The notes under the pieces were generated by a model. The model saw only the letters and a program-made list of their open reading frames with translations. It was not told the origin of the DNA and did no database searches. The position numbers and the translations under genes are program-made. Of a stretch of DNA of 64,000 nt, positions 22,897 through 32,080 are shown one piece after another (position 1 is the first letter of the stretch; each line of letters starts with the position of its first letter). This DNA comes from Pseudoxanthomonas sangjuensis (GTDB taxonomy: Bacteria > Pseudomonadota > Gammaproteobacteria > Xanthomonadales > Xanthomonadaceae): the NCBI RefSeq assembly GCF_010211755.1, contig NZ_PDWR01000004.1, positions 62,001-126,000 of the forward strand. The letters are read 5' to 3'.

Positions 22897-24093
22897 ATGC
22901 CCTTCGTACCGCAAATCAAGATTCCCGCCGCCTACATCCGCGGCGGCACCAGCAAGGGCGTGTTCTTCCGCCAGCGCGACCTGCCGCAGTCCGCGCAGAA
23001 GGCCGGCGCCGCGCGCGACAAGCTGCTGCTGCGGGTGATCGGTTCGCCCGATCCCTACGGCAAGCAGGTCGACGGCATGGGCGGCGCGACCTCGAGCACC
23101 AGCAAGGTGGTGATCCTGTCGAAGAGCAAGCGCCCGGACCACGACGTCGACTACCTGTTCGGCCAGGTGTCGATCGACAAGCCCTTCATCGACTGGAGCG
23201 GCAACTGCGGCAACCTGTCCGCCGCGGTCGGGCCGTTCGCGGTCGCCGACGGACTGGTCGATCCCGGCCGCATCCCCGACAACGGCACGGTCGCCGTGCG
23301 CATCTGGCAGGCCAACATCGGCAAGACCATCGTCGCGCACGTGCCGATCGGCAACGGCCAGGTGCAGGAAACCGGCGATTTCGAGCTCGACGGCGTGACT
23401 TTCCCGGCGGCCGAGGTGCAGCTGGAGTTCCTCGATCCCGCCGACGAGGGCGAAGGCGAGGGCGAGGGCGGTGCCATGTTCCCGACCGGCAACCTGGTCG
23501 ACGATCTCGAGGTGCCTGGCGTCGGCACCCTCAAGGCGACGCTGATCAACGCCGGCATCCCGACGATCTTCGTCAATGCCGCCGACATCGGCTACGCCGG
23601 CACCGAACTGCAGGGCGACATCAACGAAGACAAGGCCGCGCTGGCCAAATTCGAAACCATCCGCGCCCACGGTGCACTGAAGATGGGATTGATAAAGGAC
23701 CTCTCCGAAGCCTCGACCCGCCAGCACACGCCGAAGGTCGCCTTCGTCGCCCCGCCGAAGGACTACGTTTCCTCCAGCGGCCGGCCCGTCGCTGCCGGCG
23801 ACATCGACCTGCTGGTCCGCGCGCTGTCGATGGGCAAGCTGCACCACGCGATGATGGGCACGGCCGCTGTCGCTATCGGCACCGCGGCGGCGATTCCCGG
23901 GACCCTGGTCGACCTCGCGGCGGGCGGCGGCGGGCGCAATGCGGTGCGTTTCGGCCACCCCTCCGGCACCCTGCGGGTCGGGGCCGAGGCCAGGCAGGTC
24001 GACGGCCAGTGGACCGTGGCCAAGGCGATCATGAGCCGCAGCGCCCGCGTGCTGATGGAAGGCTGGGTCCGGGTCCCGGCGGACGCCTTTTGA
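22897..24093 (+). CDS. prpF: 2-methylaconitate cis-trans isomerase PrpF
   Basis: Isomerises the product of AcnD (2-methyl-trans-aconitate) to the cis form used to make 2-methylisocitrate. It has 398 residues and a diaminopimelate-epimerase-like fold. Conserved text includes AYIRGGTSKGVFF, IDWSGNCGNLSAAVGPFAV (active-site Cys in NCGN) and GMGGATSSTSKVVI. Normal length. AcnD needs PrpF in organisms that lack PrpD, so the pairing supports both calls. Confidence 0.95.
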   Translation: MPFVPQIKIPAAYIRGGTSKGVFFRQRDLPQSAQKAGAARDKLLLRVIGSPDPYGKQVDGMGGATSSTSKVVILSKSKRPDHDVDYLFGQVSIDKPFIDWSGNCGNLSAAVGPFAVADGLVDPGRIPDNGTVAVRIWQANIGKTIVAHVPIGNGQVQETGDFELDGVTFPAAEVQLEFLDPADEGEGEGEGGAMFPTGNLVDDLEVPGVGTLKATLINAGIPTIFVNAADIGYAGTELQGDINEDKAALAKFETIRAHGALKMGLIKDLSEASTRQHTPKVAFVAPPKDYVSSSGRPVAAGDIDLLVRALSMGKLHHAMMGTAAVAIGTAAAIPGTLVDLAAGGGGRNAVRFGHPSGTLRVGAEARQVDGQWTVAKAIMSRSARVLMEGWVRVPADAF

Positions 24094-24202
24094 TGTGCCG
24101 GGCGGTCCCCGCCCCCGGGAACGCTGGCCCGGATTTGGCTTAGAATGGCGCCAACCGACGCAGACCAAGGTGGCCCGCGGAAACGCTGGCCGAGCGTGCG
24201 AC

Positions 24203-24229
24203 ATGAGCACTACCACCGCCCACTGCTGA
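24203..24229 (+). CDS. Putative thrS leader peptide (MSTTTAHC)
   Basis: An eight-codon open frame, ATG AGC ACT ACC ACC GCC CAC TGC TGA, has three Thr codons in a row. It lies 19 bases before a rho-independent hairpin and 88 bases before threonyl-tRNA synthetase. This is the layout of a translation-coupled attenuator, where stalling on Thr codons would prevent terminator formation when charged tRNA-Thr is low. A candidate -10, TAGAAT, is at 24141-24146. No strong ribosome-binding site is visible, which is the main weakness. Confidence 0.6.
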
Positions 24230-24248
24230 TTCGACCCGAGGACACCGG

Positions 24249-24272
24249 AAAGGCGCCCTCGCGGCGCCTTTT
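24249..24272 (+). terminator. Terminator hairpin in the thrS leader
   Basis: AAAGGCGCC (24249-24257) pairs with GGCGCCTTT (24263-24271) around CTCGC and is followed by TTGCATTTT. It lies upstream of thrS, in the right place for an attenuator and also as a stop for prpF transcripts. Confidence 0.75.
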
Positions 24273-24317
24273 GCATTTTGGGCGGCCATGCGCCGCGCCC
24301 ATCGAACCAAGAAACCC

Positions 24318-26216
24318 ATGATCACGATCACGCTCCCGGACGGCAGCCGCCGCGAATTCGAAAACCCCGTTTCCGTCATGCAGGTCGCGCAGTCGATCGG
24401 CGCCGGCCTGGCCAAGGCCACCCTCGCCGGCGCGGTCGACGGCAAGCTGGTCGATGCCAGCGACGTCATCGACCACGACGCGTCCCTCCGCATCATCACT
24501 CCGAAGGACGCCGAAGGCGTCGAGATCATCCGCCACTCCTGCGCGCACCTGGTCGGCCATGCGGTCAAGCAGCTGTATCCGGACGTGAAGATGGTGATCG
24601 GCCCGGTGATCGAGGAAGGCTTCTATTACGACATCTACTCCGAGCGCCCGTTCACGCCGGAAGACCTCGTCGCGATCGAGCAGCGCATGAAGGAGCTGAT
24701 CGACCGGGACTACGACGTGGTCAAGAAGATGACCCCGCGCGCCGAGGTCATCGAGGTGTTCAGGTCGCGCGGCGAGGACTACAAGCTGCGCCTGATCGAC
24801 GACATGCCCGACGAGAAGGCGATGGGCCTGTACTACCACCAGGAATACGTCGACATGTGCCGCGGCCCGCACGTGCCGAACACGCGCTTCCTGAAGGCGT
24901 TCAAGCTGACCCGCATCTCCGGCGCGTACTGGCGCGGCGATTCGAAGAACGAGCAGCTGCAGCGCATCTACGGCACCGCCTGGGCCGACAAGAAGCAGCT
25001 CGACGCCTACATCCAGCGCATCGAGGAAGCCGAAAAGCGCGATCACCGCAAGATCGGCAGGCAGCAGGACCTGTTCCACCTGCAGGAAGAGGCGCCGGGC
25101 CTGGTGTTCTGGCACCCGAAGGGCTGGGCGATCTGGCAGGTGGTCGAGCAGTACATGCGCAAGGTCTACCGCGAGACCGGCTACGGCGAGGTGCGCTGCC
25201 CGCAGATCCTCGACGTGTCGCTGTGGCAGAAGTCCGGCCACTGGGACAACTACAAGGACAACATGTTCTTCACCGAGTCGGAGAAGCGCACCTACGCGGT
25301 CAAGCCGATGAACTGCCCGGGCCACGTGCAGGTGTTCAACCAGGGCCTGCACAGCTACCGCGACCTGCCGATCCGCTACGGCGAGTTCGGTTCCTGCCAT
25401 CGCAACGAGCCGTCCGGCGCGCTGCACGGCATCCTGCGCGTGCGCGGCTTCACCCAGGACGACGGCCACATCTTCTGCACCGAGGAACAGATCGAGTCGG
25501 AAGTGACCGCGTTCCACGAGCAGGCGCTGAAGGTCTACTCGGACTTCGGCTTTTCCGACATCCAGATCAAGATCGCGCTGCGCCCGGAGCCGCGCCTCGG
25601 CGACGACGCCACTTGGGACAAGGCCGAGGATGCGCTGCGCTCGGCGCTGCGCAACGCCGGCGTCGAATGGCAGGAACTGCCGGGCGAGGGCGCGTTCTAC
25701 GGCCCGAAGATCGAGTACCACCTCAAGGACGCCATCGGCCGCACCTGGCAACTGGGCACGATGCAGGTCGATTTCATGATGCCGGGGCGCCTGGGCGCCG
25801 AGTACGTCGACGAAAACAGCCAGAAGCGGCATCCGGTGATGCTGCACCGGGCCATCGTCGGCTCGATGGAGCGCTTCATCGGCATCCTGATCGAGCACCA
25901 TGCCGGCGCTTTCCCGGCCTGGCTGGCCCCGGTGCAGGCGGTGGTCGCCAACATCACCGACGCCCAGGCCGACTGGGTCGAGGAAGTCCGGAAAACCCTT
26001 GTGAATCAAGGGTTCCGGGTCGTTTCCGATTTGCGCAACGAAAAGATCGGCTATAAAATCCGCGAACACACGCTGCAACGGGTGCCGTACCTGCTGGTGG
26101 TTGGAGACCGCGAGAAGGAAAATGGCGCCGTTGCCGTTCGTACGCGTTCGGGAGAAGATCTGGGCACGATGAGCCTGGCCGCCTTCGCCGAGCGGTTGCG
26201 TAACGAACGGGCGTAA
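24318..26216 (+). CDS. thrS: Threonine--tRNA ligase
   Basis: Class II synthetase charging tRNA-Thr, 632 residues, the usual length. An N-terminal TGS domain ([20 protein letters not shown]) is followed by the editing domain with [10 protein letters not shown] and then the catalytic core. Zinc ligand Cys333 sits in MNCPGH; motif 2 [19 protein letters not shown] follows. The C-terminal anticodon-binding domain ends near residue 632. The ATG at 24318 is preferred over one at 24288 because the TGS domain normally starts right at the N-terminus. It sits behind an attenuator-like leader and heads the thrS-infC-rpmI-rplT-pheST block. Confidence 0.97.
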
Positions 26217-27328: not shown

Positions 27329-28820
<1,492 letters not shown>

Positions 28821-32003: not shown

Positions 32004-32080
32004 CGGGGTATAGCGCAGCCTGGTAGCGCACCAGTCTGGGGGACTGGTGGTCGTCGGTTCGAATCCGGCTACCCCGACCA
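32004..32080 (+). tRNA. tRNA-Pro (anticodon GGG)
   Basis: A 77-base cloverleaf. The acceptor CGGGGTA pairs with TACCCCG before the encoded A-CCA. The anticodon stem CCAGT/ACTGG encloses the loop CTGGGGG with anticodon GGG, and the T-arm is GTCGG-TTCGAAT-CCGGC. The CCA end is encoded. It reads CCC and CCU proline codons. Confidence 0.97.

Follow-up and report, generated by a model that had tools for sequence, protein, structure and literature searches.

Escherichia coli controls thrS by the textbook form of translational feedback, in which threonyl-tRNA synthetase (ThrRS) attaches to tRNA-like hairpins that cover the ribosome site of thrS. Leader-peptide attenuation is known there from pheST, with the leader peptide PheM, and from thrABC, whose leader ThrL is a longer peptide than the one described below, also senses isoleucine, and controls biosynthesis genes. 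In Firmicutes, synthetase genes (thrS included) are subject to transcription attenuation by the T-box, which binds uncharged tRNA directly and without translation. Attenuator surveys of proteobacteria have been made earlier. Leader attenuators have been predicted for leuS and trpS of Streptomyces (PMC1262725), and a His leader precedes a hisS paralogue in bacilli (PMC2965389); the word thrS is absent from both main texts, and PMC2965389 names threonyl-tRNA synthetase of E. coli a single time, as a self-regulating protein. A full-text literature search, with subscription papers mostly outside its scope, returned no recognised description of a thrS leader peptide for the order Xanthomonadales, and an earlier prediction is possible.

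Here, we describe an element in front of thrS of Pseudoxanthomonas sangjuensis, located at positions 24141 to 24280 of a 64,000-nucleotide stretch of contig NZ_PDWR01000004.1 (the window), which is very probably a ribosome-mediated attenuator of thrS transcription with charged tRNA-Thr as its signal. Like E. coli pheST, it would be a case of leader-peptide attenuation of a synthetase gene, within the same thrS-infC-rpmI-rplT-pheST neighbourhood, but the amino acid and the gene differ, and the leader here has eight codons, of which the Thr codons 3 and 4 are conserved. With ThrL it shares Thr codons in a leader peptide, a terminator, and a putative threonine signal, whereas ThrL governs biosynthesis genes and the target here would be the synthetase gene thrS. 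The likeness to the E. coli thrS operator lies in feedback control of the same gene; there was no sign of anticodon-arm-like hairpins over the thrS ribosome site, a region that looks unalignable by eye within the genus. A T-box would likewise place a synthetase gene under transcription attenuation, which here would act via a translated leader, and Rfam gave no T-box match upstream of thrS in the window. The leaders of Streptomyces leuS and trpS and of the hisS paralogue in bacilli also belong to synthetase genes, but of other amino acids and lineages.

The thrS gene (24318..26216, plus strand; NCBIfam TIGR00418, 726.9 bits) starts with ATG at 24318 and follows prpF after a short gap; infC, rpmI, rplT, pheS, and pheT come next. 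We named prpF and thrS by family model and the other five genes by reading their translations. The features of the element are collected in Table 1. An eight-codon frame, MSTTTAHC, followed by a terminator and then thrS, had been proposed in the initial annotation of the window, and all three are found, at 24203 to 24229, 24249 to 24271, and 24318, respectively, and are conserved in relatives. Two further parts of that proposal hold in part only. The hexamer TAGAAT, named as the -10 box, is present, and by eye hexamers resembling TA(C/A/G)(C/A)AT stand in roughly that position in several relatives with no tRNA-Val upstream, but a consensus scan of 23900 to 24500 found neither a -35 box matching TAGAAT nor a sigma-70 pair. 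The hairpin described as a T-rich terminator shows compensatory changes in relatives, but its tail, TTTTGCATTTT, which ends at 24279 and reads TTTT GCA TTTT, has a T run of only four bases, and the same scan did not list it. At a z score of -0.91, folding of 24150 to 24330 as a single sequence is ordinary, and Rfam gave nothing at gathering thresholds over the element; its matches below threshold seem to be due to chance. The window sequence alone is thus insufficient as proof, and we take the element to be real because it is conserved in relatives. That a short ORF stands by chance before an unrelated terminator would fit these ordinary folding statistics and the commonness of short ORFs, but it is refuted by the conservation results given below, and we give it practically no credence. 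Between rplT and pheS (27744 to 27777 of the window), a separate hairpin, GGGGAAGG/CCTTCCCC, resembles a terminator and has a T-rich tail; no Phe-rich leader was obvious beside it by eye.

Table 1. Features of the element upstream of thrS, in window coordinates.
Feature	Position	Strand	Basis
Candidate -10 box of the leader promoter, TAGAAT	24141..24146	+	read from sequence
AGGTGG, near-invariant, possible upstream ribosome contact	24168..24173	+	comparison of relatives
Hairpin P1, GGCC-c-GCG-GAAA-CGC-t-GGCC, with GAAA loop	24172..24191	+	covariation
Near-invariant block GAGCGTGCGACATG, ending in the leader start codon	24192..24205	+	comparison of relatives
Leader MSTTTAHC*, ATG AGC ACT ACC ACC GCC CAC TGC TGA	24203..24229	+	stop-codon pattern
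Conserved Thr codons 3 and 4 (ACT ACC)	24209..24214	+	codon counts in relatives
CGAGG in the spacer, putative antiterminator strand	24237..24241	+	complementary to 24257-24261; covariation
CCTCG, last base of terminator 5' arm plus loop, antiterminator partner	24257..24261	+	complementarity, covariation
Intrinsic terminator hairpin AAAGGCGCC-CTCGC-GGCGCCTTT	24249..24271	+	6/6 core pairs with compensatory changes

The element is present in all 37 Pseudoxanthomonas genomes that have a thrS match, out of 38, and these provide 36 distinct sequences. The remaining genome, G013, gave only a 33-base match; its sole ThrRS match is distant, so the absence of the element there is probably a matter of the assembly. 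The block GAGCGTGCGACATGAGCACTACC is nearly invariant in the genus, and thrS starts 107 to 232 bases past the start of the GAGCG block. Between the terminator and thrS, the Pseudoxanthomonas loci L013, L019, L026, and L027 contain a repeat-like gggattcgggattggggattcg and variants of it. A covariance model built from the 37 sequences matches 243 of the 398 genomes of the order (family f1, 126 of 129; f12, 114; f3, f9, and f11, one each); the f9 match was not reproduced when the model search was repeated, and its thrS (L299) has no Thr leader. Among the matches listed, each genome has one match, save for a weak second match in two genomes, and a readable thrS start lies downstream in 195 of 200 distinct elements, the other five having none. 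Of the model matches whose surroundings were read, almost every one is located in front of thrS. Loci L132 to L250 are among the matches listed for a search pattern with ACTAC as codons 3 and 4. They were left out of the Thr-codon counts, save for a pooled table of the 200 distinct elements; the tests on terminators, folding, and covariation, which do not depend on those codons, did take them in. The contig of one of them, L206, is labelled as coming from a metagenome bin of Rhizobium and is probably mis-binned. The sequences share kinship, and the P values and permutation counts below are not to be read as independent trials.

Comparison among relatives argues that the leader frame is translated. 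In three leader sets not chosen by a pattern for Thr (36 from Pseudoxanthomonas, 74 derived with the model from other genera, and 10 f12 leaders anchored on thrS), a stop codon falls within codons 4 to 9 of the leader frame in 36/36, 72/74, and 9/10 cases, 117 of 120 in total, against none in the +1 frame and 0, 1, and 0 in the +2 frame. It is this frame specificity that points to translation; TGA, TAA, and TAG all serve as leader stops in relatives, and leader length ranges from 5 to 14 codons in the 200 distinct elements among the matches listed. Codon 3 encodes Thr in all 120 leaders (ACT in 114, ACG in 6) and codon 4 in 106 (ACC in 92, ACG in 12, ACA in 2), with ACC at codon 4 in 34 of the 36 distinct Pseudoxanthomonas leaders. 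Seven leaders have CGA at codon 4, and every one of them has a Thr codon 5 (MSTRT-like). Fewer than two Thr within residues 2 to 6 were counted in just 6 of the 120, each with a single Thr codon, a pattern that sequence comparison attributes to selection for Thr codons and that bears out the expected conservation of Thr codons in relatives. The triple threonine of the initial annotation shrinks to a pair: 19 of the 36 distinct Pseudoxanthomonas leaders have Thr at codon 5, the rest having Ile, Asn, Gln, Gly, or Arg, and we rejected the third Thr codon as a part of the sensor. Across 36 ORFs of the window, ACT accounts for 25 of 611 Thr codons, so the triplet fixed at codon 3 is a rare one there; that it sharpens the sensor is a guess.

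A tRNA-Val(GAC) gene lies directly upstream of the leader in many relatives (L003 to L005, L033 to L035, L284 to L286, L289, and L305) and may be cotranscribed with it. Together with the long and variable gap to thrS, this would suit a small RNA, or the terminator of a tRNA-Val(GAC) unit, that merely adjoins thrS. Such a unit would not account for the frame-specific stops and the Thr codons, nor for the Thr-rich leaders across families described below; no tRNA-Val precedes the leader in the window, where the sole tRNA is a tRNA-Pro at 32004. We therefore consider an unrelated neighbour of this kind highly improbable, and we return to the leader as part of an attenuator.

Upstream of the leader codons, relatives share AGGTGG, presumably complementary to the anti-Shine-Dalgarno core CACCU of 16S rRNA; the hairpin P1; and the near-invariant GAG(C/T)GTG(C/T)GACATG, which spans the leader start region (24192 to 24205 of the window). 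The near-invariance of GAGNGTGYGACATG exceeds what a ribosome-binding site needs. The weak ribosome-binding site, raised as a caution against the leader frame, weighs less in view of the GAG(C/T)GTG(C/T)GACATG block and the stop-codon pattern. In an alignment of 94 sequences that was fitted to the model and hence is biased towards it, P1 shows both-side changes in 7 of 7 pairs, with 97.7% of cells paired, and all 6 pairs of the terminator stem have compensatory changes; shuffled and slid versions score far lower. On a further alignment (A1), which is poor past the ORF, RNAalifold gave 14 pairs, none of them changed on both sides. A conserved 5' block with P1, and a possible GUGC/GCAC hairpin at the start codon, could also mean that ThrRS binds its own leader RNA via tRNA-Thr-like hairpins, as in the E. 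coli operator. The start-codon hairpin, however, was rejected as a conserved structure: compensatory changes are absent from it, two of the four pairs are broken in 12 and 23 of the 94 sequences, and its loop GACAUGA carries, as we take it, no Thr anticodon. Moreover, the stretch by the thrS start, with its gap of 107 to 232 bases, looks unalignable by eye in the genus, and other families are without the block yet have Thr codons. Binding by ThrRS is, in our estimation, very unlikely.

Attenuation requires a terminator and a strand that competes with it. Of 200 related leaders among the matches listed, 183 have a hairpin followed by at least 5 T in 7 bases, against 44 of 600 shuffled ones; the window hairpin fails this rule and passes with 4 T. 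By the lax rule of 4 T, which had no shuffle control, a terminator is found in 203 of the 210 leaders among the matches listed. The seven leaders without one (L032, L096, L102, L103, L139, L147, and L195) keep the ORF and possibly have another mode of control; L195 is from Xanthomonas codiaei and L139 from Lysobacter terrigena. Past the ORF, the spacer often contains a strand complementary to the end of the terminator 5' arm plus the loop. In the window this is CGAGG/CCTCG, found by eye, which is the best helix in 38 of the 203 leaders among the matches listed; other leaders have ACATGG/CCATGT, CGAAG/CTTCG, or CAAGG/CCTTG. For 80 distinct apices, among the matches listed, the own spacer scores 14.11 against 12.55 (standard deviation, 0.29) for permuted spacers, and none of 500 permutations reaches 14.11. 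Spacer and apex thus coevolve, which argues for an antiterminator strand that is mutually exclusive with the terminator and answers the call for an alternative antiterminator stem. A classical 1:2 helix between the 5' GGTGGC and the spacer was rejected as a general feature (13.42 versus 12.77 for shuffled spacers, and above the own shuffle mean in 109 of 203), and this pairing reaches 8 to 9 bp in single relatives.

In the mechanism that we infer from this arrangement, RNA polymerase would start about 20 bases 5' of P1, from the promoter in Table 1, and a ribosome would initiate on the eight-codon leader. When Thr-tRNA is ample, the ribosome would reach the stop codon, where its 3' edge would hide a large part of the spacer strand; this would let the terminator hairpin form, and transcription would end before thrS. 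When Thr-tRNA is scarce, at low threonine or low ThrRS, the ribosome would pause at codons 3 and 4, leaving the spacer strand free to pair with the end of the terminator 5' arm and the loop, which would disfavour the terminator and allow transcription of thrS. The footprint positions, the response to threonine, and the direction of the switch in P. sangjuensis are predictions of this scheme.

We computed the switch with thermodynamic folding, which ignores kinetics, and with the 3' edge of the ribosome assumed to lie 15 bases from the P site. For 198 sequences among the matches listed, equilibrium folding gives the terminator a mean probability of 0.39 when the ribosome sits at Thr codon 3 and of 0.73 when it is at the stop codon, compared to 0.66 and 0.75, respectively, with dinucleotide-shuffled spacers; with no ribosome it is 0.50 (203 sequences, among the matches listed). 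This difference between real and shuffled spacers implies that the real ones hold a competitor that is hidden by a ribosome at the stop codon. Before the 3' arm exists, upstream pairing of the 5' arm shows no effect of the ribosome, with means of 0.66 (codon 3) and 0.64 (stop codon), and among the 203 sequences of the matches listed, the difference between the two states exceeds 0.1 in 34 and falls below -0.1 in 9. The equilibrium step is small in Pseudoxanthomonas (0.36 to 0.50; 33 sequences) and likewise small in the window (0.88 to 0.97), where the predicted switch is weak. In a clade with its stop at codon 7, which makes up 18 of the 36 distinct Pseudoxanthomonas sequences, no switch is predicted because a ribosome at the stop falls short of the strand, and in one member, L003, folding predicts that the terminator stays unformed in every state. 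The modelled dependence on ribosome position is therefore an average effect seen at equilibrium alone, and some clades lack it. Results of this kind would also suit a translated upstream ORF that acts by another route, such as Rho-dependent termination, RNA stability, or ribosome delivery, with the intrinsic terminator being secondary: the seven leaders without a terminator by the lax rule retain the ORF, and the predicted switch is absent in L003 and, on average, before completion of the terminator. We judge this unlikely in view of the terminator in 203 of 210 leaders, the compensatory changes, and the coevolving spacer strand, and we favour attenuation; at the level of sequence, the element has the features of leader-peptide attenuators.

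Searches anchored on thrS, made without the covariance model, covered f12 loci, other families of the order, families f7, f4, and f8, and other orders. Among 30 f12 thrS loci, 26 have the element, as does L275 by inspection; L252, L253, and L256 differ from these in their 5' block and have the leaders MTRVNTAS, MTRTSTLH, and MTRIFDILD, the last of these (L256) with one Thr only. Elsewhere in the order, the leaders read MTRTDSPA, MTRTAFNA, MTRTGTPD, MTRVTLSNH, MTRTGYP, MNVSFRTTT, MASTLTTVD, MCQQATTTTTP, MIIATRTFTG, MMLSTRTFID, MRYTRTTSDAPS, MRTTTMAIH, MRTTRI, and MKTTTKN, each with a terminator 3' of it (by eye for MRTTRI). A second conserved leader block, approximately GTAGTTCGAACGAACACGATCACCATGACGCGAAC, stands in place of GAGNGTGYGACATG in L252, L253, L256, L283 to L286, and L288, which represent other families and some f12 and f1 genomes. 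A Thr leader was not seen before thrS of L282 (f1), L298 and L299 (f9), and L301 (f8), and the leader of L281 (f1), MRTRSRH, contains a single Thr and is followed by no terminator under the rule.

We then applied a fixed rule (an ATG ORF of 4 to 15 residues with two identical residues within three positions and a terminator 5 to 60 bases on) to the regions upstream of thrS. Outside f12, 24 genomes were searched, 21 of them chosen as model negative and the others being G088, G091, and G175; 19 were used, and G013, G042, G046, G054, and G088 were set aside with a thrS start unresolved or a thrS split, partial, or missing. Of the 103 matches in other orders of the class, 88 thrS regions were fetched and 86 used. 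Thr passes the rule in 13 of the 19 usable thrS genes of the order and in none of the 86 from other orders; the next-ranking amino acid in the order is Ser, with 2 of 19. A terminator precedes thrS in 17 of 19 cases in the order and in 29 of 86 outside it, and among the thrS genes with a terminator, a Thr leader is present in 13 of 17 versus 0 of 29.

In some families, the RNA seems to begin at the start codon of the leader itself. A Thr ORF with a terminator precedes a resolved thrS in 20 of 24 cases in f7, 4 of 4 in f4, and 4 of 6 in f8; one f7 case (L429) looks spurious, the f8 positives all belong to genus g39, and loci with an unresolved thrS start (5 of 29 in f7 and 24 of 30 in f8) were dropped. 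A TANNNT hexamer, mostly TACAAT, TAAAAT, or TATAAT, ends 6 to 8 bases 5' of the leader start codon in 26 of 28 cases, a count that leans upward because ORFs with a nearby -10-like hexamer were preferred where several qualified. This spacing predicts that the first base of the RNA lies at or adjoining the leader start codon. Whether a single order-wide trait underlies these forms is, in our view, evenly balanced: Thr attenuation of thrS would then operate in most families, with at least two Thr codons and a terminator as its only fixed content; the sensors in f7, f4, and one f8 genus would be leaderless, with a ribosome that has no 5' untranslated region deciding within the first codons; and the families of the window would carry a conserved platform (AGGTGG, P1, and GAGNGTGYGACATG) in front, its tight conservation reflecting some function in addition to the usual start of translation.

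The initial annotation had suggested that this lineage may control thrS by transcription attenuation. Thr-rich leaders of other sequence in other families lend support to that suggestion, which holds on the comparative evidence and probably reaches much wider than was supposed. Unlike E. coli, many families of the order, including those of Xanthomonas, Stenotrophomonas, Lysobacter, and Rhodanobacter, apparently rely on leader-peptide attenuation of thrS. The leaders are very short and occur in apparently leadered and leaderless forms, which would make them an example of sensor evolution in which almost only the codons stay fixed.
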